Assembly (NCBI GenBank): GCA_016218825.1
Contig: JACRCV010000109.1
Span: 1 to 46,483, forward strand
Direction: 5' to 3'
Length of the DNA stretch: 46,483 nt
DNA from: Deltaproteobacteria bacterium
GTDB taxonomy: Bacteria; Myxococcota; XYA12-FULL-58-9
The stretch's first letter is position 1, and the number at the start of each line of letters is the position of its first letter. Under the pieces are notes generated by a model. The model was not told the DNA's origin and made no database searches. It worked only from the letters and a program-made list of their open reading frames with translations. The position numbers and the translations under genes are program-made. Positions 20,712-30,991 of the stretch are shown here, in pieces.

Positions 20712-21359
20712 ATGGCTGAAGCGCTCAACGATCGGATCCAGGCACTGGAGCGGGAGCTCTCGTCTCTGCGGCGGCATCTCGCGGCGTCGGGTCAGCTCGC
20801 GGCGGCGGTGGTTGGCGAGGCGGGGGCGTCGGCGGCGCCGCGGGCGGTGGTGGGCGAGTCGATCTTGGCGTTTTCGGCTGGTGACGTTCGTCTGGGGTTG
20901 CGGCTCGGCGAGGTGTTGGAGGTGGTGCGGATGGTGGAGCCGACGCCGCTCGCGGACGCGTCGCCCGGGATTCTGGGGGCGATCGACTACCGCGGCACGA
21001 TCATGCCGCTCTTGGATCTCGCGGTTCGTCTGGGGCGGCCGGCGCGGGCGTTCGGGGTGGATTCGAAGATCATCGTCGCGAAGACCGCCGGGCGGCAGTT
21101 CGGCGCCGTGGTCGACGAGGTCCAGGGGCTGGTGCCCGTGACTGCCGACGCCTTTTGTTCCGACGCCAAGCTGTCGATGGGCGAGGTCCCGGTCGAGCGG
21201 CGCTGTTTGTTGGGGGCGCTGCGGGCGGAGGGCGGGCTGCTCCTGGTGTTGGATCTGGCCGGGGTGTTGTCCTGGATCCCGGCCGAGCCTACGGCAGCGA
21301 AGGACGGCCCGGCCGAGAAGGCGCCGCCGGCTCGCCGCAAACGGAAGGACAAGGCGTGA
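20712..21359 (+). CDS. cheW: CheW-like coupling protein
   Basis: The product is 215 residues. A short coiled-coil-like start (RIQALERELSSLRRHLA) leads to a CheW domain at about 48-185: ILAFSAGDVRLGLRLGEVLE, then VV, GAIDYRGTIMPLLDL and QFGAVVDEVQGLV. The C-terminus is a lysine/arginine-rich tail (ARRKRKDKA). It couples receptors to CheA in a chemosensory array. It is the first gene of the operon and overlaps cheR (GTGA). The N-terminal helix and basic tail are additions to the standard CheW. Confidence 0.9.
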   Translation: MAEALNDRIQALERELSSLRRHLAASGQLAAAVVGEAGASAAPRAVVGESILAFSAGDVRLGLRLGEVLEVVRMVEPTPLADASPGILGAIDYRGTIMPLLDLAVRLGRPARAFGVDSKIIVAKTAGRQFGAVVDEVQGLVPVTADAFCSDAKLSMGEVPVERRCLLGALRAEGGLLLVLDLAGVLSWIPAEPTAAKDGPAEKAPPARRKRKDKA

Positions 21360-22792
21360 TCTCGCGGCCCCACGAATCGGAGGCCAAGGTGACGGCGGTG
21401 GCGGACACGGCGGTGTTCGAGCCGGTGACCTTCATCGGCGACCATCTCAAGCGGCACTGTGGGATGTCGTTTCGCGAGCACAACCTCGACGATTTGGCGC
21501 GCGCCGTGCGTCGCGCGGCGGCGCAGTTCACCGCGGGCGACCCGTTGCGGCTGGCGGCGTTGTTGCCCGGGACCGAAGGGGAGCAGGCGCTCGGTTGGCT
21601 GGTGCGGGAGCTGACGATCGGCGAGAGCTACTTCTTCCGGATCTTCGAGCAGTTCACGACCCTGCGGCGGGTCATTCCGACGCTCCACGACGAGAAGGTC
21701 AAGGCCGGCGATCCCGAGTTTCGGGTCTGGAGCGCCGGCTGCGCCGCCGGCGAAGAGGCGTACTCGCTCGCGATCTTGTTGCGGCAGAGCCTGCCGCGGG
21801 GCACCCCGGGTCGAGTGATCGGGACCGACATCAACCCCGAGTTTCTGTCGCGGGCGGCGGCGGGGGAGTACTCGAGCTGGTCGTTGCGCGGTCTCGAGGA
21901 GCACGAGCGCGCCGCGTACTTCGAGCAGACCGGCGACAACCGCTTCTTGCTGCGCGCCGACTTCAAGACCGGGGTGAGCTTCCGCTACCACAACCTGCGC
22001 CACGATCCGGCGGTGGTGCTCGTCGGCGGCGCGTTGTTCGACGTCATCTTGTGTCGCAACGTCCTGATCTACTTCGAGCCCGACATGGCCGCAGCGGTCG
22101 CCCTGCAGCTCGCCGGGGTGCTGGGGCGGGGCGGCTATCTCCTCTTTGGCCCCTCCGACCCGGTGCCGGCCGAGCTCGAGGGGCTCGAGCGCTGCGAGGA
22201 CAACGCCGGGATCATGTTCCACCGGCCGTTCGTAGCGCCGCCGGTCACCGCGGCGACACGGCAGCGGCGCCGCCCGAAAGGCGCCGGGCGCGCGTCAGCG
22301 AAGGCCCCGCCCCCCGGACGCCGTACGGTCGTGACGCGGCCGGCGGCGGTCGCGCCCGAGCCCGCGACACCGGTGGACGCGGCCGCGCTCCGCCGGGCCG
22401 AGGCGCATCTGCTCGCGAATCGTGGTCAGTTGGACGCTGCGGTGGCGAGCGTCGAGAGGTGGTTGTCGACCGCGCCGACGTCCTTGGACGCGAGCTATCT
22501 GCTCGCGTCTCTAGAGCGCCGCCGCGGCAACGACGGCCGGGCGTTGGAGCTGTTGCGGCAGTGCCTCTACCTCGATCCATGCTACGTGCTGGCGCACTTC
22601 GCCACTGCCGAGATCCACGCCGCCGCCGGCAACCGCGACGCGGCCCGCGGTGGTTTCAGCAACACCTTGGATCTGCTAGCGAATCTCGACGATGAGGCGC
22701 TGCTCCCCGGCTCGGACGAGATCACCGCGGGGTGGCTGAAGCTCGTCGTCAACGGCCGTCTGCGGCGCGCGGAGACGGAGGCGAAGCGGTGA
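21356..22792 (+). CDS. cheR: CheR methyltransferase with C-terminal TPR region
   Basis: The product is 478 residues from GTG 21356, which overlaps the cheW stop. The CheR domain (about 20-290) has YFFRIFEQF, the SAM-binding VWSAGCAAGEEAYSLAI and the late motif ILCRNVLIYF. A Pro/Arg-rich linker (about 300-340) leads to TPR-like helices (LDASYLLASLERRRGNDGRA, LELLRQCLYLDP, FATAEIHAAAGNRDAA). It methylates glutamates of the receptor with S-adenosylmethionine. CheR-TPR fusion is also the design of FrzF in Myxococcus. The next cheW starts inside its stop (GTGA). Confidence 0.93.
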   Translation: MISRPHESEAKVTAVADTAVFEPVTFIGDHLKRHCGMSFREHNLDDLARAVRRAAAQFTAGDPLRLAALLPGTEGEQALGWLVRELTIGESYFFRIFEQFTTLRRVIPTLHDEKVKAGDPEFRVWSAGCAAGEEAYSLAILLRQSLPRGTPGRVIGTDINPEFLSRAAAGEYSSWSLRGLEEHERAAYFEQTGDNRFLLRADFKTGVSFRYHNLRHDPAVVLVGGALFDVILCRNVLIYFEPDMAAAVALQLAGVLGRGGYLLFGPSDPVPAELEGLERCEDNAGIMFHRPFVAPPVTAATRQRRRPKGAGRASAKAPPPGRRTVVTRPAAVAPEPATPVDAAALRRAEAHLLANRGQLDAAVASVERWLSTAPTSLDASYLLASLERRRGNDGRALELLRQCLYLDPCYVLAHFATAEIHAAAGNRDAARGGFSNTLDLLANLDDEALLPGSDEITAGWLKLVVNGRLRRAETEAKR

Positions 22793-23406
22793 GGCCGGTG
22801 CCAAGACGGGCGAGTGGTGCCGCGATCGACTGGACGTCGATCTACACCCGCCTCGACGAGGTCGAGCGCAAGGTCAAGAGCGTTCGGGCGGTGGCGCCGG
22901 AGCGCGTGCACGAGATCTTGCGGCGCCGAGCGCTGGAGCTGTCGCGCACCGACGTCCAGGGCGATTCGCGACGCTCGACGGCGCGGCACAGCATGCTGGT
23001 GTTCAGCGTCGTCAACGGCCAATACGCGGTCGCCGCCGAGCTCGCGAGCGAGATCTTGCCGCTCGGCCGGCTGACGCCGATTCCGCTGGCGCCGAGCTAC
23101 GTCGCCGGGGTCACCAGTCGCCGCGGCCAGATCCTGATGTTGCTCGACCTGCGGCGGTTGTTGGGCTTGGCGGCGCTGCACGCCGCCGACCTGGTCAAGG
23201 TCATCGTCATCGGCCAGGCGCCGACCGAGGTCGGGCTGTTGGCGGAGAACGTCGAGGGCGTCGTCGAGGCCGCGGACAGCGACGTCGCGGCGCCGCTCTT
23301 GGCCGGGGACTACGTTCGGGGCATTGTCGGCGGCAAGATCACGCTGCTCGACGCCAAGAAGCTACTGCAATTAGGTGCGGCAACCGCCTACCCGCAGACG
23401 AGGTAG
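22789..23406 (+). CDS. cheW: Second CheW-like coupling protein
   Basis: The product is 205 residues from GTG 22789 (GTGA overlap with cheR). The N-terminus (about 1-65) has a basic coiled region (RLDEVERKVKSVRAVAPERV) and the CheW domain follows: MLVFSVVNGQYAVAAELASE, YVAGVTSRRGQILMLLDLRR and VGLLAENVEGVVEA. Having two CheW proteins in one operon mirrors FrzA and FrzB. The stop lies 55 bases before the two-CW gene. Confidence 0.9.
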   Translation: MRPVPRRASGAAIDWTSIYTRLDEVERKVKSVRAVAPERVHEILRRRALELSRTDVQGDSRRSTARHSMLVFSVVNGQYAVAAELASEILPLGRLTPIPLAPSYVAGVTSRRGQILMLLDLRRLLGLAALHAADLVKVIVIGQAPTEVGLLAENVEGVVEAADSDVAAPLLAGDYVRGIVGGKITLLDAKKLLQLGAATAYPQTR

Positions 23407-23461: not shown

Positions 23462-23851
23462 ATGGCAACCAAGAAGACAGCGAAGAAGGCAACGAAGAAG
23501 GCAACGAAGAAGGCAGGCAACAAGAAGGTCAGCCGGCGAGCGGCGGTCGCAAAGGCCAAGCCGAAGAAGGCCGCGCGCCGGTCGGCGGCACCGTCGCCGG
23601 CCGCGGCGTTTCAGGTCGCGGCGCCGGTGGTCGCGATCCCGTGTTGGCAGTACAAGAAGTGCGGCCGCGAGCCGGGCGGCGTCAAGATCGCGGAGCTCGG
23701 CATCTGCCCGGCGTATCCGAACCACGGCCGCGACTGCTGGATGGCCGCGGGGACCTTCTGCGGCGGCCAGGTGCAGGGCACCTACGCCGAGAAGCTCGGT
23801 AATTGCCAGAAGTGTGAGTTCTACCAACAGGTGATGAGCGGCATCGTTTGA
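23462..23851 (+). CDS. Two-CW domain protein with histone H1-like lysine-rich tail
   Basis: The product is 129 residues from ATG 23462 (GGAG at -11). Residues 1-40 hold 14 Lys and 4 Arg in TKKA-type repeats, like a histone H1 tail and encoded by a near-perfect 12-base tandem repeat. Residues 60-120 form a two-CW domain: C61-W62, C67, C82, C92-W93, C100, C115 and C118 with [17 protein letters not shown] and NCQKCEFY. Two-CW domains are small cysteine modules often linked to signalling proteins; the cysteines suggest metal or redox binding. The tail could bind DNA. It sits between cheW and the receptor gene, so a role in the array is likely (inference). Confidence 0.85.
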
Positions 23852-23877: not shown

Positions 23878-25245
23878 ATGTCAGAGACCGGTGAGAAAGT
23901 CGCGACGGGTGCCAGAGCTCGGGGCAGGAAGAACGCCGGCGTGCCGGCGGCAGGGCGCGGGCCCGACCTCGAGCTCGAGGTGAAGCGCCTGCGGGTCTAC
24001 GCCGAGAACGTCGACAAGCAGGTGATGTTGTTGGGGAACGAGTTGGCGTTCGCCAACTGCGTCAAGTACGGGCTGGTGGAGCCGTTCTTCACCACCGACG
24101 CGGCTTTCAACGTCACCTACATCAACGGCAACATGCTGGCGCTCTGCGGTCGCAAGCGCGACGCCTCCAAGCTGACGCTCGACGACGTGTTGCGCGTCGA
24201 TGAAGAGGACGTCGTCGCCGTGGTGCAGGGCTGCGCCAAGACCGGCAAGCCGGCGATGGGCATCAAGGCGACGTTGCACGACGCCGAGGCGGTGCGCCGG
24301 CGTTTCTTGATCAACGCCGGGCCGCTGAAGAAGTCCACCGGCGAGATTGTCGGCATCTACTGCATCCTCCAGGACATCACCGATCTCGAGGGCCTGGAGG
24401 AGCGCAATCGGCTCTTCGACTTAGTGCGCGAAGCGACGGTGACGCTGCGCACCGCGGTCTCTCAGATCTTGAGCACGATCGCGGAGCAGAACGCGAGCTT
24501 GAGCGAGCAGTCGGCGGCGGTGGCCCAGACCACGGCGACGATCAAGGAGACCAGTCAGGCGGCGCAGCAGACCGCCGAGCACGCCCAGAGCGTCATCGAG
24601 TTCGCGGATCGGGCGGAGGAAGTGTCGGGAGAAGGGCAGCACTCGGTCGAGCGCGCGGTCGCCGCGACCAAGGAGGCGCACGACCGGGTGGTCGGCATCG
24701 CCGACAGCGTCGTCGAGCTCTCGGAGCAGGCGTCGCAGATCGGCGAGATCGTCACCACGGTGAGCGAGCTCGCCGACCAGACCAACATGTTGGCGCTGAA
24801 CGCCTCGATCGAGGCCGCCAAGGCGGGAGAGTACGGCAAGGGCTTCGCGGTGGTCGCGGTCGAGATGCGCAAGCTCGCGGAGCAGTCGCAGCGCTCGACG
24901 CACGAGATCCGCGGCATCCTCGGCGAGGTGCAGAAGGTCGTGCGCCAGGTGGTGAAGGCCACCGAGGACGGCAGCGCCAAGGTGGACGAGGGCGTCAAGC
25001 TCTCCGGGGTCGCGGGCGAGAACATCGACAAGCTGGCGCACACGATGGTCGAGTCGTCGCAGGCGGCCAAGCAGATCGCGATGTCGGCGCGGCAACAGTC
25101 GGTGGGCTTCGACCAGGTCTCGAAGGCCATGGGCAACATCGCCCAGGCCACCACCGAGTCGGTCGCCGCGGTGCGGCAGCTGGAGTCGGCGGCCCGCGAC
25201 CTCCGCGGCCTCGCCGAACGGCTCACGGAGCTGGTCCAGGGCTAG
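23878..25245 (+). CDS. Soluble methyl-accepting chemotaxis protein with PAS domain
   Basis: The product is 455 residues. ATG 23878 is chosen for its AGGA site; a TTG at 23848 is possible. A basic N-terminus ([18 protein letters not shown]) leads to a PAS domain at about 60-170 ([20 protein letters not shown] ... [11 protein letters not shown]). The signalling domain has the hairpin tip [20 protein letters not shown], then [16 protein letters not shown]. No membrane span is present, so the receptor is cytoplasmic. Soluble receptors with basic N-termini include FrzCD, which binds the nucleoid. The ligand is unknown; PAS could sense redox state or a cofactor. Confidence 0.93.
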
Positions 25246-25249
25246 AGCC

Positions 25250-27544
25250 ATGCCGCTCGACGTCAACAAGCGCCGGCAGCTGCTCGAGATCTTCCGCGAA
25301 GAAGCGGTGGAGGGTCTGCGCGTCATCAGCCGGAGCCTGATCGCCTGCGAGCAGGCCGATTCGCCCGAGGCCCGTAAGCAAGCGCACGACGAGGTGCGGC
25401 GTCACCTGCACAGCCTCAAAGGGTCGGCGGCCGCGGTCGGGTTGATGGAGCTGCAAGCGCTGATGCACGAGCTCGAGACCTTCCTCGGACCGACCTCGCC
25501 CGAGGACGGTCGGCAAGTCGACATCGCGCTCGCCGCGGTGGAGACCGCGGAGGCCTGGCTGCAGCGCGGCGTCGCCGGCGAAGCCATCAGCGCCGAGGAG
25601 GTCAGCGCCGCGCGCCAAGCGCTCACCGCGCCAGCCACGGCACCCGCCAAGGCTGCGGCGTCACCACCGCCGGCGGTTGCGGCCCCGGCGCCGGTGGCGT
25701 CACCGGTCGTGGCCCCGGCCGCGACGTCTGCAGCAGCGCCGGCGGCTCTCGAGCCAGGTCGGGAGGGGGGCGCGTCGCCGGCGCCGACGGTCCAGGAAGT
25801 CGCGGTGGCGGCGGCGGCCCCGGCGTTGATGCGGGTGGCGACCGAGCGGCTCGATGATCTCCTCGGCAAGGGTGAGGAGCTGGTGGTCGCGGGGGCCAGG
25901 CTCCGGCCCCAGGTGCAGCGCCTCGCCGACCTGGCGGCGGAGATCGAAGCGGTGTTGTTCGAGGTGCGCCGCGCCGAGCGGGCGCGGCGTCGCGGCGGCG
26001 AGCGCGGCGGCAACGACGGCACGCCGCTGACGGCGTGGCGGGAGCGCCTCACCGAGATCAAGAAGCGCCTGACCGGCAGTCGCTTCGAGGTCGCCGCCGA
26101 CCACGAGCGGCTCTCGACCTTGACCACGACGCTGCTCGACGCAGTGCGGGTGATGCGGATGTTGCCGGTCGGCGAGGTCCTGGAGAGCTACGAGCGCGCG
26201 GTCCGCGAGCTGGCGCGCGACCAGGGCAAGAACGTTCGCATGGTGGTGCAGTGCGGCGACGTGCGCCTCGACAAGCGGGTGCTCGACGCGGTGCGGGCGC
26301 CGCTGTTGCACCTGGTGCGCAACGCGGTCGCCCACGGCATGGAGACCCCGAGTGAGCGCCTCACGGCCGGCAAACCGCCGGTCGGCACCTTGCTGCTGTC
26401 GTCGGAGACCCGCGGCAACCGCGTGGCGATCGAGGTCTGCGACGATGGCCGTGGCGTCGACGTCGACGCGGTGCGCCGGGCGGCGACCGAGCGCGGCCTG
26501 GTGCCGGCCGCCGCGGTCGCCTCGTTGTCGGCGGCGGATTCCCTGAACCTGATCTTTCATCCGGGCCTCTCGACCCGGCGCGAGGCCGACACCGCGGCCG
26601 GGCGTGGCGTCGGGCTGTCGGTGGTGTACGAGACCATGGTGCAGCTGCGCGGCGACGTGCGGGTCACGACCACCGCCGGCGGCGGCACGATCTTCAGCCT
26701 GCTCTTGCCCCTGACCTTGGCCGCGACCCGCGGGCTCTTGGTGGCGGTTGGCGGCGAGGTGTTCGCGTTGCCGGTGCCGTCGGTCGAGCGGGTGTTGCGG
26801 GTAGCGGCGACCGACGTCCACCGGCTCCAAGGACGGGAGACGATCGACGACGGCCTCGGGCCGATGCCGCTCGTCGAGCTCGCGTCGCTGTTGCAGCGGG
26901 TCAGCACCGCCGACAAACGCGGCCGCCGCGCCGCGGTCGTCGTGATCACCGCCGATGGGCGGCTGGCGCTCTTGGTCGACAAGATCTTGGACGAGCACGA
27001 GATCATCATGCGCGACCTACCCGGCGGTCTGTCGCACATCGACGTGCTGGCGGGCGGCACCCTCCTCGAGGACGGGCGGGTGGTGCCGGCGCTGAACGTC
27101 GACGGCTTGCTGCGCGCCGCCGCCGCGCGTCCGGTGGCGGCGACGGTCGCGAAAGCCGACAGCCGCCGGATCGTGGTCGCCGACGACTCGCCCACCACCC
27201 GCAGCTTGATCGCCGGCGAGGTCGAGGCCGCCGGGTTCGTGCCTCTCGCCGCCGCCGACGGCCAGCAGGCGCTGCAGCTCTTGGATGACAATGACGCGGT
27301 CGCCTTGATCTCCGACGTCCAGATGCCCAACCTCGACGGCCTGGGGTTGGTGCGCGCGGTGCGCGCCAACCCGCGGATCAAGGACCTGCCGGTGGTGCTC
27401 GTGACCTCGAGAGACTCGGAGGTCGACCGCCAGCTCGGCGCCCAGGCCGGGGCCGACGCCTACCTCATCAAGAAAGAGATCACCGGCGAGCGACTCCTCG
27501 GGGTCCTGGGCCAGCTGTTGCGCCGCAGCGGGAGGGCCACGTGA
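25250..27544 (+). CDS. cheA: Hybrid CheA histidine kinase with C-terminal receiver
   Basis: The product is 764 residues. An Hpt domain with phospho-His H54 (HLHSLKGSAAAVGL) is followed by a Pro/Ala linker (about 125-185) and no recognisable P2. The dimerisation region precedes the ATPase, with N-box HLVRNAVAHG, G1 DDGRGVD and G2 GRGVGLSVV. A CheW-like P5 is followed by a receiver from about 639 (VVADDSPTT, phospho-Asp D689 in ISDVQMPNLDG). The architecture matches FrzE (CheA-CheY). It starts four bases after the receptor stop and overlaps cheB (GTGA). Confidence 0.95.
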   Translation: MPLDVNKRRQLLEIFREEAVEGLRVISRSLIACEQADSPEARKQAHDEVRRHLHSLKGSAAAVGLMELQALMHELETFLGPTSPEDGRQVDIALAAVETAEAWLQRGVAGEAISAEEVSAARQALTAPATAPAKAAASPPPAVAAPAPVASPVVAPAATSAAAPAALEPGREGGASPAPTVQEVAVAAAAPALMRVATERLDDLLGKGEELVVAGARLRPQVQRLADLAAEIEAVLFEVRRAERARRRGGERGGNDGTPLTAWRERLTEIKKRLTGSRFEVAADHERLSTLTTTLLDAVRVMRMLPVGEVLESYERAVRELARDQGKNVRMVVQCGDVRLDKRVLDAVRAPLLHLVRNAVAHGMETPSERLTAGKPPVGTLLLSSETRGNRVAIEVCDDGRGVDVDAVRRAATERGLVPAAAVASLSAADSLNLIFHPGLSTRREADTAAGRGVGLSVVYETMVQLRGDVRVTTTAGGGTIFSLLLPLTLAATRGLLVAVGGEVFALPVPSVERVLRVAATDVHRLQGRETIDDGLGPMPLVELASLLQRVSTADKRGRRAAVVVITADGRLALLVDKILDEHEIIMRDLPGGLSHIDVLAGGTLLEDGRVVPALNVDGLLRAAAARPVAATVAKADSRRIVVADDSPTTRSLIAGEVEAAGFVPLAAADGQQALQLLDDNDAVALISDVQMPNLDGLGLVRAVRANPRIKDLPVVLVTSRDSEVDRQLGAQAGADAYLIKKEITGERLLGVLGQLLRRSGRAT

Positions 27545-28626
27545 TCGTCGTTCTCTTGGTGGCCGCGCGTGCCGACGCCCGCGCCGCGGCGCGCGCCGCC
27601 CTCGAGAGCGCCAGCGACATCGCGGTGTGCGGCGAGAGCGGCAGCGCGCGCGACATCGAGCGCCTGCTGCAGAAGTTCCGCCCCGAGGTCATCATCCTCG
27701 GCAGCAGCCTCGGCAAGGCCGTGCTCCTCGAGGTCACCGAGAGGATCATGCAGGAGACCCCGACCGCGGTGGTGGTGCTCGAGGACGCCGGGCCGGAGGT
27801 CAGCGACCAGGCGGGGTTCGAGGCGCTGCAGCGCGGCGCGGTGGAGATCGCCCGCAGCCCGGCCGGGGTCGACAGGGCGCGCGCCAAGAGGCTCTCGGCC
27901 GAGCTCGTCGACACCGTGCGGATGGCGAGCCGGGTGCGTTTGATCCGCCGCCGGCCGGTGGTGACGCCGGCCGCGAAGGGCGCGGGTCGTGCGTCGGCGG
28001 TGCGGGCGCTGGTGGCGATCGGCGCGTCCACCGGCGGGCCGCCGGCGTTGGTCCAGATCTTGAGCGCGCTGCCGGCCGCCTTCAGCGCGCCGATCCTCGT
28101 GGTGCAGCACATGACCGACGGTTTCAGCGAGCAGTTCGTCAGCTGGCTGTCGAGCATGGTGCCGCAGCGGGTCATGATCCCCAAGTCGGGAGAGGTCCCC
28201 GAGCCCGGCGTGGTCTACGTCGGCCAGGAGGGCCAGCACCTCGGCGTCAACGCCAACGGCACGCTGCGGGTCTCCGACGATCCACCGTTGAACGGCCACC
28301 GGCCGGCGGCGACCGTGCTGTTCGAATCCCTGGCCGGCTCGAGCATCTCCAACCGCGTCGGGGTGATTCTGACCGGCATGGGTGACGACGGCGCGCGCGG
28401 CCTGGTGGCGCTGCGCCGCTCCGGCGGTTACGTGCTGGCGCAGGACGCGGCCTCGTGTGTCGTCTTCGGCATGCCACAGGCGGCGATCGCGCTCGGCGCC
28501 GCGAACGAGGTCGCGGCCCTCGACGACATCGGACCGCGCCTGTTGGTGCTGATGCTCGACGACACCGCGCGCCAGGACGATCAGAGCCCGGGCCCGGCAC
28601 GGCGCCGGAAGCGGGTGGAGTCGTGA
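27541..28626 (+). CDS. cheB: CheB methylesterase with degenerate receiver domain
   Basis: The product is 361 residues from GTG 27541 (overlapping the cheA stop). The C-terminal esterase (about 155-340) has the catalytic triad S163 (GASTGGP), H190 (VVQHM) and D283 (LTGMGDDGARG). The N-terminal domain folds like a receiver but lacks the acidic pair, and the phospho-acceptor Asp is replaced (VIILGSSLGK, G54). It therefore cannot be switched on by phosphorylation in the standard way. It removes methyl groups from the receptor; its control may be constitutive or by a different partner. Confidence 0.92.
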   Translation: MIVVLLVAARADARAAARAALESASDIAVCGESGSARDIERLLQKFRPEVIILGSSLGKAVLLEVTERIMQETPTAVVVLEDAGPEVSDQAGFEALQRGAVEIARSPAGVDRARAKRLSAELVDTVRMASRVRLIRRRPVVTPAAKGAGRASAVRALVAIGASTGGPPALVQILSALPAAFSAPILVVQHMTDGFSEQFVSWLSSMVPQRVMIPKSGEVPEPGVVYVGQEGQHLGVNANGTLRVSDDPPLNGHRPAATVLFESLAGSSISNRVGVILTGMGDDGARGLVALRRSGGYVLAQDAASCVVFGMPQAAIALGAANEVAALDDIGPRLLVLMLDDTARQDDQSPGPARRRKRVES

Positions 28627-29987
28627 CCGGTCTGCCGGCTTTCAAGCCGTTTCGCCTGGTGCAGAAGGTGCGCGAGGACGGCAAGATCGTGTTCTACGAC
28701 GCGGCGTTCATGCGCGGTACCACGACGCGCCCGGTGGTGTTGAAGGTGTGGCCGACGGCGATCGGCGGCCTCGACAAGCTCGAGGCGCAGCAGTTCGAAG
28801 ACGCGCGCGCCGCCACCGCGCATCCGCACGCCAACGTCGTCGCGGTGTGTGACTTCGGCTGGAACGAGGGCATGAGCTACCTGGCGATCGACTGCGAGCG
28901 CGACCAACGCGACCTCAACAAGCTGCAAAAGCGCGCCCGGGTGCGCAAGCACGGCGTCGACGTCACCGGCGCCGTCAGCATCGCGGTCGAGACCTGCCAG
29001 GCGATGCAGCACCTCGCGAGCAGCTTGCCGGAGGTCAAAGGCGTCAAGCCGATGGTCACGCCCCTCGACATCTGGGTGAGCACCCAGGGCGGCGTCAAGG
29101 TGGTGCCGGTGCGCAGCTTCTTCGCCAGCGCGTTGTCGGCGCGTCAGGTGTTGTACTACCTCGCGCCCGAGCAGGCGGTCGGCGGCGCGGCCACCGAGAA
29201 GAGCGCGGTGTTCGTAATCGCGTCGCTGCTCTTCGAGCTGTTGTGCGGCGAGAAGTTGCTCGGCGAGGGCACCGAGACCGAGATCGTGCAGCGGATGCTG
29301 GAGATCGACACCGACAAGGCGGTCGCCGCGCACCCCGAGATCCCGGCGGCGCTGCAGCCGGTCTTGAGAACCGCCCTCAGCCGCGAGCCCCAACGCCGCC
29401 AACGCGACCCGGCGGCGCTCTCTGCCGAGCTCGCCCAGAGCGTCGGCGCGGCGGTCGTCGAGCACCGCGCCGCGGCGATCCGCGACCTGATCGCCGGCCT
29501 GTTTCCGGAGGAGGCGGCGAGCGCCGGCGCGCTCGGAGAGCTGACGCCGTCGTTCGGGGTGCGGTTGCCGATTGCCGGCTCCGGGCCGGCGCCGGCCGGG
29601 CAGTGCCGCCACAAGGTCCTGGTCGCCGATGACTCGTCCACGATCCGCGCGGTCATCAAGGTCTACCTGGTCGGCAACCAGCTCGACTATCTCGAGGCCG
29701 CCGATGGCCGCGCCGCCTTCGAGCTCGCGCGCCGCGAGCTGCCCCGCCTCATCATCTCCGACATCAACATGCCGGAGCTCAACGGCCTGGACCTGTGCCG
29801 CAAGGTGAAGGCCGACGCGACGCTCGCCAAGACCCCGTTCGTGCTCTTGACCTCGAAGAAGGACGACGAAGACCGACGCCTCGGCGCCGACGCCGGGGCC
29901 GATGCCTACCTCACCAAGCCGGTCGGCTCGGACGAGCTCGAAGAGGTCATCCAGCGCTTGCTGGGGATTACCTTCAAGAAGGCCTAG
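28623..29987 (+). CDS. Pseudokinase-receiver fusion, probable output of the chemosensory system
   Basis: The product is 454 residues from GTG 28623 (overlaps the cheB stop). Residues 1-270 align with Ser/Thr kinases: VVLKVW has the beta-3 lysine K41, YLAPEQ near 179-184 matches the APE motif, and EKSAVFVIASLLFELLCGE matches helix F. The catalytic HRD is absent (MVTPLDIWV near 144-152) and DFG is replaced by PVR near 162, so it is a likely pseudokinase. An intact receiver follows from about 328 (VLVADDSS, D380 in ISDINMP, LLTS, YLTKPV). CheA could phosphorylate it, turning the pseudokinase into a signal-dependent binding module. The stop overlaps the opposing GGDEF gene. Confidence 0.85.
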   Translation: MTGLPAFKPFRLVQKVREDGKIVFYDAAFMRGTTTRPVVLKVWPTAIGGLDKLEAQQFEDARAATAHPHANVVAVCDFGWNEGMSYLAIDCERDQRDLNKLQKRARVRKHGVDVTGAVSIAVETCQAMQHLASSLPEVKGVKPMVTPLDIWVSTQGGVKVVPVRSFFASALSARQVLYYLAPEQAVGGAATEKSAVFVIASLLFELLCGEKLLGEGTETEIVQRMLEIDTDKAVAAHPEIPAALQPVLRTALSREPQRRQRDPAALSAELAQSVGAAVVEHRAAAIRDLIAGLFPEEAASAGALGELTPSFGVRLPIAGSGPAPAGQCRHKVLVADDSSTIRAVIKVYLVGNQLDYLEAADGRAAFELARRELPRLIISDINMPELNGLDLCRKVKADATLAKTPFVLLTSKKDDEDRRLGADAGADAYLTKPVGSDELEEVIQRLLGITFKKA

Positions 29988-30991
29988 GGCGCGGGCTGCT
30001 CTTCGTCGACCACGACGCAGTTGCGGCCGGCGCGCTTGGCGCTGTAGAGCGCGGCGTCGGCAGAGGCGAACAGGCGCCGAATCAGGCCGCTCGGGTCGAA
30101 GCGCTGCAGCTCGCCGTTGGCGCTGGCGATCGTCACGCAGGAGACCCCGACGCTGATGGTGACCGGCGTCAGTCCCATGGTGTCGGCTTGGACCGCGGCG
30201 CGGATCTTCTCGGCCACGACGCGGGCGCCGTCCAAACCGGTGTGGGGAAGGATCACCGAAAACTCTTCGCCGCCGAAACGGGCCAGCACGTCGCTGGTGC
30301 GGATGTTGGCGCGGATGGTCTCGGCGACCGCGCGCAGCACCCGGTCACCCTGCAGGTGGCCGAGCTCATCGTTCACCGCCTTGAAGTGATCGATGTCGAG
30401 CATCAGGCAGGAGACGGTCGGCGGGCCGCCGCGGCTCATCTGCTTGACGTGCTTGCCGACGATCTCGAACAGGAAGCGGCGCGAGTAGGCCCCGGTCAGC
30501 TCGTCGGTCATCGCCAGCTGCTGCAGCCGAAGCTGGGCGCGGCAGATCGTGACCTGGCACCAGACCCGGGCGAACAGGATCCCGGGCGAGTACGGCTTGG
30601 TGACGAAGTCGTTGCCGCCGGCGTTCAGCGCCGCGACCACCATCGACTCGTCGTCTCGGTGCCCGGTGAGGAAGAGCACCGGGATGTGGGCGAGCCCCGG
30701 ATCGGCCTTGAGTCGACGGCAGGTCGAGATCCCATCCATCCCCGGCATCTCGATGTCGAGGATGATGCACTCCGGCAAGTGCGTCTGGCTCTGCGCCTGC
30801 GCCAGACAGGCTTCGCCGCTCGCGGCCATCTCCACCAAGAAGCCTTTTTCCTCGAGGTCGAGGCGCAACGATTCGCGGATCGTGGGGCTGTCATCGACGA
30901 CCAGGACCCGGCCGGGCTCACCGCCTTTTGCCGTCAAAGACTGCGTAATCGCCCTCTCTTTGCTCCCTGTCCAGCCACCCCGACCGGGCAA
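29984..30991 (-). CDS. Response regulator diguanylate cyclase (REC-GGDEF)
   Basis: The product is up to 335 residues. The TTG at 30991 opens the frame; a TTG at 30937 behind GAGAGGG is also possible. The receiver (about 28-145) is intact: VLVVDDSPT, ILDIEMPGMDG, LFLTGH, FVTKPY. The GGDEF domain (about 165-325) has the active RFGGEEFSVI and, five residues earlier, an RTSD inhibitory c-di-GMP site. It makes cyclic di-GMP when phosphorylated. It is convergent with the chemosensory operon, sharing the CTAG that carries both stops, so it may be a second output (inference). Confidence 0.92.
   Translation of the reverse strand: MPGRGGWTGSKERAITQSLTAKGGEPGRVLVVDDSPTIRESLRLDLEEKGFLVEMAASGEACLAQAQSQTHLPECIILDIEMPGMDGISTCRRLKADPGLAHIPVLFLTGHRDDESMVVAALNAGGNDFVTKPYSPGILFARVWCQVTICRAQLRLQQLAMTDELTGAYSRRFLFEIVGKHVKQMSRGGPPTVSCLMLDIDHFKAVNDELGHLQGDRVLRAVAETIRANIRTSDVLARFGGEEFSVILPHTGLDGARVVAEKIRAAVQADTMGLTPVTISVGVSCVTIASANGELQRFDPSGLIRRLFASADAALYSAKRAGRNCVVVDEEQPAP

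Follow-up and report, generated by a model that had tools for sequence, protein, structure and literature searches.

A pseudokinase–receiver fusion as a possible output of a chemosensory operon in a bacterium of the Myxococcota

The locus and the fusion protein

The stretch of DNA analyzed here, referred to as the window, comprises 46,483 nucleotides of contig JACRCV010000109.1 (assembly GCA_016218825.1) from a Deltaproteobacteria bacterium of the phylum Myxococcota (XYA12-FULL-58-9). It contains a gene for a protein in which a catalytically degenerate kinase fold is joined to a receiver domain with a complete set of phosphorylation residues. This fusion gene is the last one of a complete chemosensory operon, which encodes a CheW, a CheR, a second CheW, a small Cys-rich protein, a methyl-accepting chemotaxis protein (MCP) with a PAS domain, a CheA with a receiver and a CheB. 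Its open reading frame (ORF) starts with a GTG codon at position 28623, overlaps the cheB stop codon by 4 bp and ends with its own stop codon at 29985-29987.

Kinase and receiver are the only domains detected in the fusion protein. The NCBIfam PknB model matches residues 59-281 (E 2.2e-15), and the Pfam Pkinase model gives a weak match below the cut-off that covers the C-lobe only. The receiver holds the acidic pair D336/D337, the phospho-acceptor D380, T410 and K432, i.e., every phosphorylation residue that a preliminary description of this DNA, made from the sequence alone, had ascribed to it. Apart from the receivers in CheA and CheB, of which the latter is degenerate, it is the only CheY-like receiver of the operon. 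An AlphaFold2 model, calculated with 27 helper rows (other receivers of the window and kinases from fetched loci), has a mean predicted local distance difference test (pLDDT) score of 81 and shows a kinase domain that is connected to a receiver through helices and a disordered linker. The model aligns to PknA and PknB over approx. 250 residues with a Z score of approx. 27 and a root-mean-square deviation of approx. 2.6. Fold and sequence relationship place the protein in the Hanks-type (protein kinase-like) superfamily.

Loss of the catalytic motifs

Motif positions were assigned by alignment to kinases with intact motifs. The residues that define an active Ser/Thr kinase are all replaced: the HRD position is occupied by K142-P143-M144, with M144 instead of the Asp, the catalytic-loop Asn by D149, and the DFG Asp by P162 of the sequence P162-V163-R164. 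In addition, the domain has Asp (D60) instead of the α-C Glu, a degraded Gly-rich loop with the sequence REDGKI and a short activation loop. K41 and the APE motif at residues 181-183 are retained, as noted in the preliminary description, which had also recognized the missing HRD and the PVR in place of DFG. Its statement that helix F is conserved applies to the helix itself, but not to the invariant Asp, which is A195 here. In general, bacterial pseudokinases are defined by the loss of at least one residue of the catalytic triad; the window protein has lost two of the three and keeps K41, and the earlier pseudokinase assignment is thus upheld. A second Asp or Asn suitably placed for catalysis would speak for an active enzyme. 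At the level of sequence, D149 stands at the Asn position, and residues 150-182 contain neither Asp nor Glu, so that nothing in this stretch can replace the DFG Asp. A literal DFG at residues 77-79 was considered as a metal site and rejected, because it is a β4 motif that is also present in relatives. Judged by these motifs, the kinase-fold domain is catalytically dead.

When 67 kinase domains of the phylum were sampled, including that of the window, none of the other 66 lacked both HRD and DFG. The other sampled domains of the window's own genome (16 of 16) have VAIK, HRD, DFG and APE, and only three further domains in the sample, two of them fragments, miss the APE or the Lys pattern.

A frameshift that hides intact motifs can be ruled out, because a single one-frame tblastn match of the counterpart from genome G091 (see below) covers the whole fusion, and the other reading frames contain no HRD or DFG at the right place. 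At the first, second and third codon position, the GC content of the kinase part is 0.69, 0.45 and 0.94, respectively; the receiver has values of 0.67, 0.38 and 0.94, and neighboring genes are alike. With an open frame and a strong codon periodicity, a decaying gene is not favored as a simple explanation.

Operon components and neighboring genes

Positions of the genes and motifs are listed in Table 1. The TPR-like tail of CheR matches TPR_14 with 21.5 bits, below the cut-off of 23.5. The Cys-rich protein is 67-71% identical to those in the corresponding operons of two other genomes (G091 and G182), and further copies exist elsewhere in its own genome and in others; it may bind metal as a partner of the receptor. 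In genome G019, an ORF matching both Ser/Thr kinase and receiver queries (locus L176, 747-2528) adjoins a relative of this protein. The receiver of CheB has lost both the acidic pair and the phospho-acceptor Asp (PEVIILGSSLG), and the same loss is seen in the CheB of G091. Because of this degeneration, methylesterase control may not depend on phosphorylation by CheA. The REC-GGDEF gene converges with the fusion gene, the two stop codons overlapping by 4 bp, and its product could serve this CheA as an alternative output. The numbers of CheW-domain matches (17) and of PilT-family proteins (three) above the cut-off in the window's genome suggest that the bacterium has several chemosensory systems and that it probably has type IV pili.

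Table 1. Genes, domains and residues of the operon and its convergent neighbor.
Feature	Position	Strand	Basis
CheW	20712..21359	+	Pfam
CheR methyltransferase, C-terminal TPR-like region	21356..22792	+	Pfam CheR, E 1.1e-41
Second CheW	22789..23406	+	Pfam
Small Cys-rich protein, without Pfam family	23462..23851	+	Conserved in syntenic operons of G091 and G182
MCP signaling protein with PAS domain	23878..25245	+	Pfam
CheA (Hpt, HATPase, CheW domain) with C-terminal receiver	25250..27544	+	Pfam
CheB methylesterase with degenerate N-terminal receiver	27541..28626	+	Pfam (methylesterase only); receiver from sequence
Pseudokinase–receiver fusion gene, 454 residues	28623..29987	+	Pfam and NCBIfam matches
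Hanks-type kinase-fold domain, approx. residues 1-280, catalytically degenerate	28623..29462	+	NCBIfam PknB model; structure model
K41, β3 (VAIK) lysine, kept	28743..28745	+	Alignment
Catalytic loop KPMVTPLD (residues 142-149) replacing HRDVTPSN	29046..29069	+	Alignment
PVR (residues 162-164) replacing DFG	29106..29114	+	Alignment
APE (residues 181-183), kept	29163..29171	+	Alignment
A195 at the position of the invariant helix-F Asp	29205..29207	+	Alignment
Receiver (REC) domain, residues 330-447	29610..29963	+	Pfam Response_reg, E 1.6e-22
Receiver D336/D337	29628-29633	+	Sequence
Receiver D380	29760-29762	+	Sequence
Receiver T410	29850-29852	+	Sequence
Receiver K432	29916-29918	+	Sequence
REC-GGDEF gene	29984..30991	-	Pfam

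Relatives and origin of the fusion

Relatives were searched in 195 genomes of the phylum, and the pseudokinase form was seen in a single genome, that of the window. The fusion gene was not found in one genome of the same genus (an assembly that is 86% complete) and one of the same family, nor was the window's CheA at E 1e-80. A scan of genome contigs with the kinase part retrieved one weak, distant kinase only. Likewise, searching plasmids with the kinase part returned distant kinases only, while the G091 protein gave one partial kinase–receiver-like match. PADLOC matches to PD-T4-6 were dismissed, because they reflect kinase-domain similarity only.

A counterpart with the same architecture is found in G091, a genome from another family of the phylum. 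There, a syntenic operon for CheW, CheR, CheW, Cys-rich protein, MCP, CheA and CheB likewise ends with a kinase–receiver fusion, in which HRDVTPSN, DFG, APE and the helix-F Asp are all intact. The preliminary description could not connect the arrangement to any named system; this no longer holds, as the gene is the terminal gene of a Che operon and has a syntenic counterpart with a motif-intact Ser/Thr kinase. Two further genomes contain a free CheY: in G182 it lies in an operon fragment marked by the Cys-rich protein, and in G011 in a related operon in which no kinase was seen. Motif-intact kinase–receiver fusions are also present at eight loci of Myxococcaceae-like genomes, and three of these (in G104, G101 and G173) adjoin Che clusters. 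At loci L092 (8023-9537), L094 (2997-4574) and L099 (9567-11063), such fusions stand beside Che clusters and carry a receiver type unlike that of the window; they are probably independent fusions.

In the receiver tree, the receivers of the window and G091 fusions fall into one set (94/83) with free CheYs from related clusters, its inner order being open, and the receiver of the window's CheA groups with that of the G091 CheA (96/92). The fusion receivers of the Myxococcaceae-like genomes stand apart from this set. Because of this different receiver type, kinases have probably been joined to receivers around such Che clusters at least twice. The kinase tree is less informative, since the window branch amounts to several substitutions per site and is too long for its placement to be resolved.

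We consider it probable that the window form descends from a Ser/Thr kinase–CheY fusion like that of G091 and that it lost catalysis while keeping the switch. The two fusion genes share the operon position, the overlap with cheB and the receiver group, and their proteins align over their length in a single alignment (window residues 12-446, 33% identity). The kinase parts do not follow this pattern. That of the window scores 52 bits against G091 but up to 86 bits against other kinases, and a joint clade of both, although not rejected (p-AU of the approximately unbiased test, 0.575), is not demonstrated either. Since the G091 kinase is not the most similar one, it is synteny and architecture that support the proposed descent of the kinase part. 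Alternatively, the two fusions could have separate origins, in which different kinases were attached to CheYs of the same type; the higher scores against other kinases and the repeated origin of such fusions with another receiver type would argue for this. Considering the shared position, overlap and receiver group, the full-length alignment and the joint grouping that is not rejected, we regard independent origins as unlikely.

Proposed function and alternative explanations

The position and composition of the fusion suggest that it is the CheY-equivalent output of a chemosensory operon with an alternative function, in which phosphorylated CheA gates the non-catalytic binding of a partner. 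We assign this interpretation a slightly better than even chance. The MCP/CheW/CheA array would set CheA autophosphorylation, and CheA would hand the phosphate to D380 of the fusion receiver. Phosphorylation of the receiver could then alter the exposure of a protein-binding surface on the kinase-fold domain, by which the pseudokinase would recruit or sequester a partner without phosphorylating it. Because the kinase is dead here and intact in the G091 counterpart, signaling probably occurs by partner binding rather than by kinase catalysis. Such a gated output is supported by the complete Che operon with its overlapping genes, the syntenic operon of G091, the receiver groupings and the alignment of the structure model to PknA and PknB. 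Moreover, the catalytic elements, except K41, are lost while the receiver residues are all kept, and the frame is open with strong codon periodicity despite an extremely long kinase branch. The phosphorylation-gated, non-catalytic binding module proposed in the preliminary description therefore stands as the best-supported interpretation; the domains, the residue losses, the operon and the synteny are shown by the sequences, and gating and binding are inferred.

Several points weigh against this interpretation. Phosphotransfer from CheA, gating and partner binding are all steps that we infer. The helper kinases bias the structure model, and the kinase part alone, modeled without an alignment, reaches a pLDDT of 42. 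Only a single genome carries the pseudokinase form, which is too few for a test of selection. Furthermore, the actual output of the pathway could be the receiver of CheA or the neighboring REC-GGDEF protein.

An alternative on function, quite unlikely but more probable than those that follow, is that the kinase-fold domain is vestigial, with the receiver alone acting as CheY and the former kinase being carried along or merely stabilizing the fold. The use of free CheYs of the same receiver group in related operons (G011, G109, G122, G104 and G101), the extreme branch length and the restriction to a single genome are all compatible with this view. However, an unconstrained stretch with so many substitutions should show stop codons or frameshifts, whereas the frame remains open with the same codon periodicity as in the neighbors, and the domain retains further motifs of kinases, for instance APE. 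The domain could also bind nucleotide via K41, as some pseudokinases do, and act as an allosteric switch that senses ATP and is linked to the receiver. A metal ion could still be contacted by D149, which occupies the Asn position, but the degraded Gly-rich loop, the Asp in place of the α-C Glu, the Pro in place of the DFG Asp and the absence of acidic residues from residues 150-182 make us doubt this even more than a vestigial domain. Finally, ATP chemistry by unusual residues, i.e., residual phosphotransfer or AMPylation/glutamylation as in SelO or SidJ, is very improbable, because, although kinase-like proteins without canonical motifs can have such activities, SelO and SidJ keep the DFG-position Asp (Table 1 of PMC12599244), while the window protein has Pro.

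In its full form, i.e., a chemosensory pathway with a pseudokinase as dedicated CheY-type output, in which an Asp-phosphorylation switch drives a dead kinase scaffold derived from a fusion with a working kinase, the proposal is a tentative one, with not quite an even chance of being correct. The fusion joins the two main phosphorylation systems of bacteria, His-Asp and Ser/Thr, in one protein at a chemosensory output. Bacterial pseudokinases are largely unexplored by experiment, and that of the window is unusually testable because the operon itself points to CheA as its likely upstream signal. Together with the G091 protein, it provides a natural pair of dead and motif-intact kinase–receivers in syntenic operons, by which the contribution of a kinase fold without catalysis could be examined.

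Comparison with known systems

In the titles, abstracts and passages covered, which exclude Galperin's response-regulator surveys, we found no report of a Che cluster in which a Ser/Thr kinase or a pseudokinase is fused to a receiver; kinase–receiver fusions are likely already listed in such surveys. In a survey of CheR-TPR clusters, the receiver partners listed include no Ser/Thr kinase or pseudokinase (PMC3447774). Receivers and response regulators go unmentioned in a 2025 review on bacterial pseudokinase families (PMC12599244), on which the following comparison of families is based. The window protein, with its retained K41, lacks a defining feature of ActPs1. It differs from ActPs2, which has Arg for the β3 Lys, Asn for the HRD Asp and long insertions, by K41, M144 and a short activation loop, and from ActPs3 (MviN type), in which the canonical motifs are completely degraded, by K41 and by the receiver that follows the kinase. 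The GLW family has GLW for HRD and Leu/Trp for the β3 Lys, where the window protein has KPM and K41. The CP1 family is linked to a COG3899 domain, while only kinase and receiver were found here, and DLHK retains the HRD Asp that is M144 in the window. Like the window protein, MviN (ActPs3) and YukC/EssB have degenerate motifs in a Hanks-type fold whose activation loop is shortened, and they serve scaffold roles. In contrast to the window protein with its K41, they are transmembrane proteins that have lost the β3 Lys, and no receiver is described for them there.

Among chemosensory systems, pathways of the alternative cellular function (ACF) type combine CheR-TPR with a multidomain response regulator (PMC3447774). 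The operon contains such a regulator in the fusion protein, and the tail of its CheR resembles a TPR at a score below the cut-off. Two Myxococcaceae-like genomes (loci L103 and L104) contain a CheW-CheR-MCP-CheY-CheW-CheA cluster that corresponds in gene order and size, the only features compared, to the published Che4 of Myxococcus xanthus (PMC3945109), and its free CheY groups with the window receiver. Che4 has this gene order, a free CheY4 and no CheB, whereas the window operon has another order, CheB, the Cys-rich protein and a fused receiver. At L103 (13270-15342) and L104 (3541-5562), which belong to two genera, a divergent gene for a motif-intact PknB-type Ser/Thr kinase adjoins the Che4-like cluster.

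The fusions of G091 and of the Myxococcaceae-like genomes have the same arrangement as the window protein, with the kinase preceding the receiver, and those of G091, G104, G101 and G173 lie in or next to Che clusters. They differ from it by their intact HRD, DFG and helix-F Asp. With respect to a dead enzyme, the nearest parallel is RssB of Escherichia coli, in which a dead PP2C-fold domain binds the client protein and phosphorylation of the receiver raises the affinity (PMC7226468). Both proteins join a receiver to a dead enzyme of Ser/Thr phosphorylation. RssB, however, has a phosphatase fold and an N-terminal receiver and is not part of a chemosensory operon, whereas the window protein has a kinase fold and a C-terminal receiver, and its partner binding is a prediction. 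RssB is a precedent for a dead enzyme that is joined to a receiver and serves as a binding output (PMC7226468).
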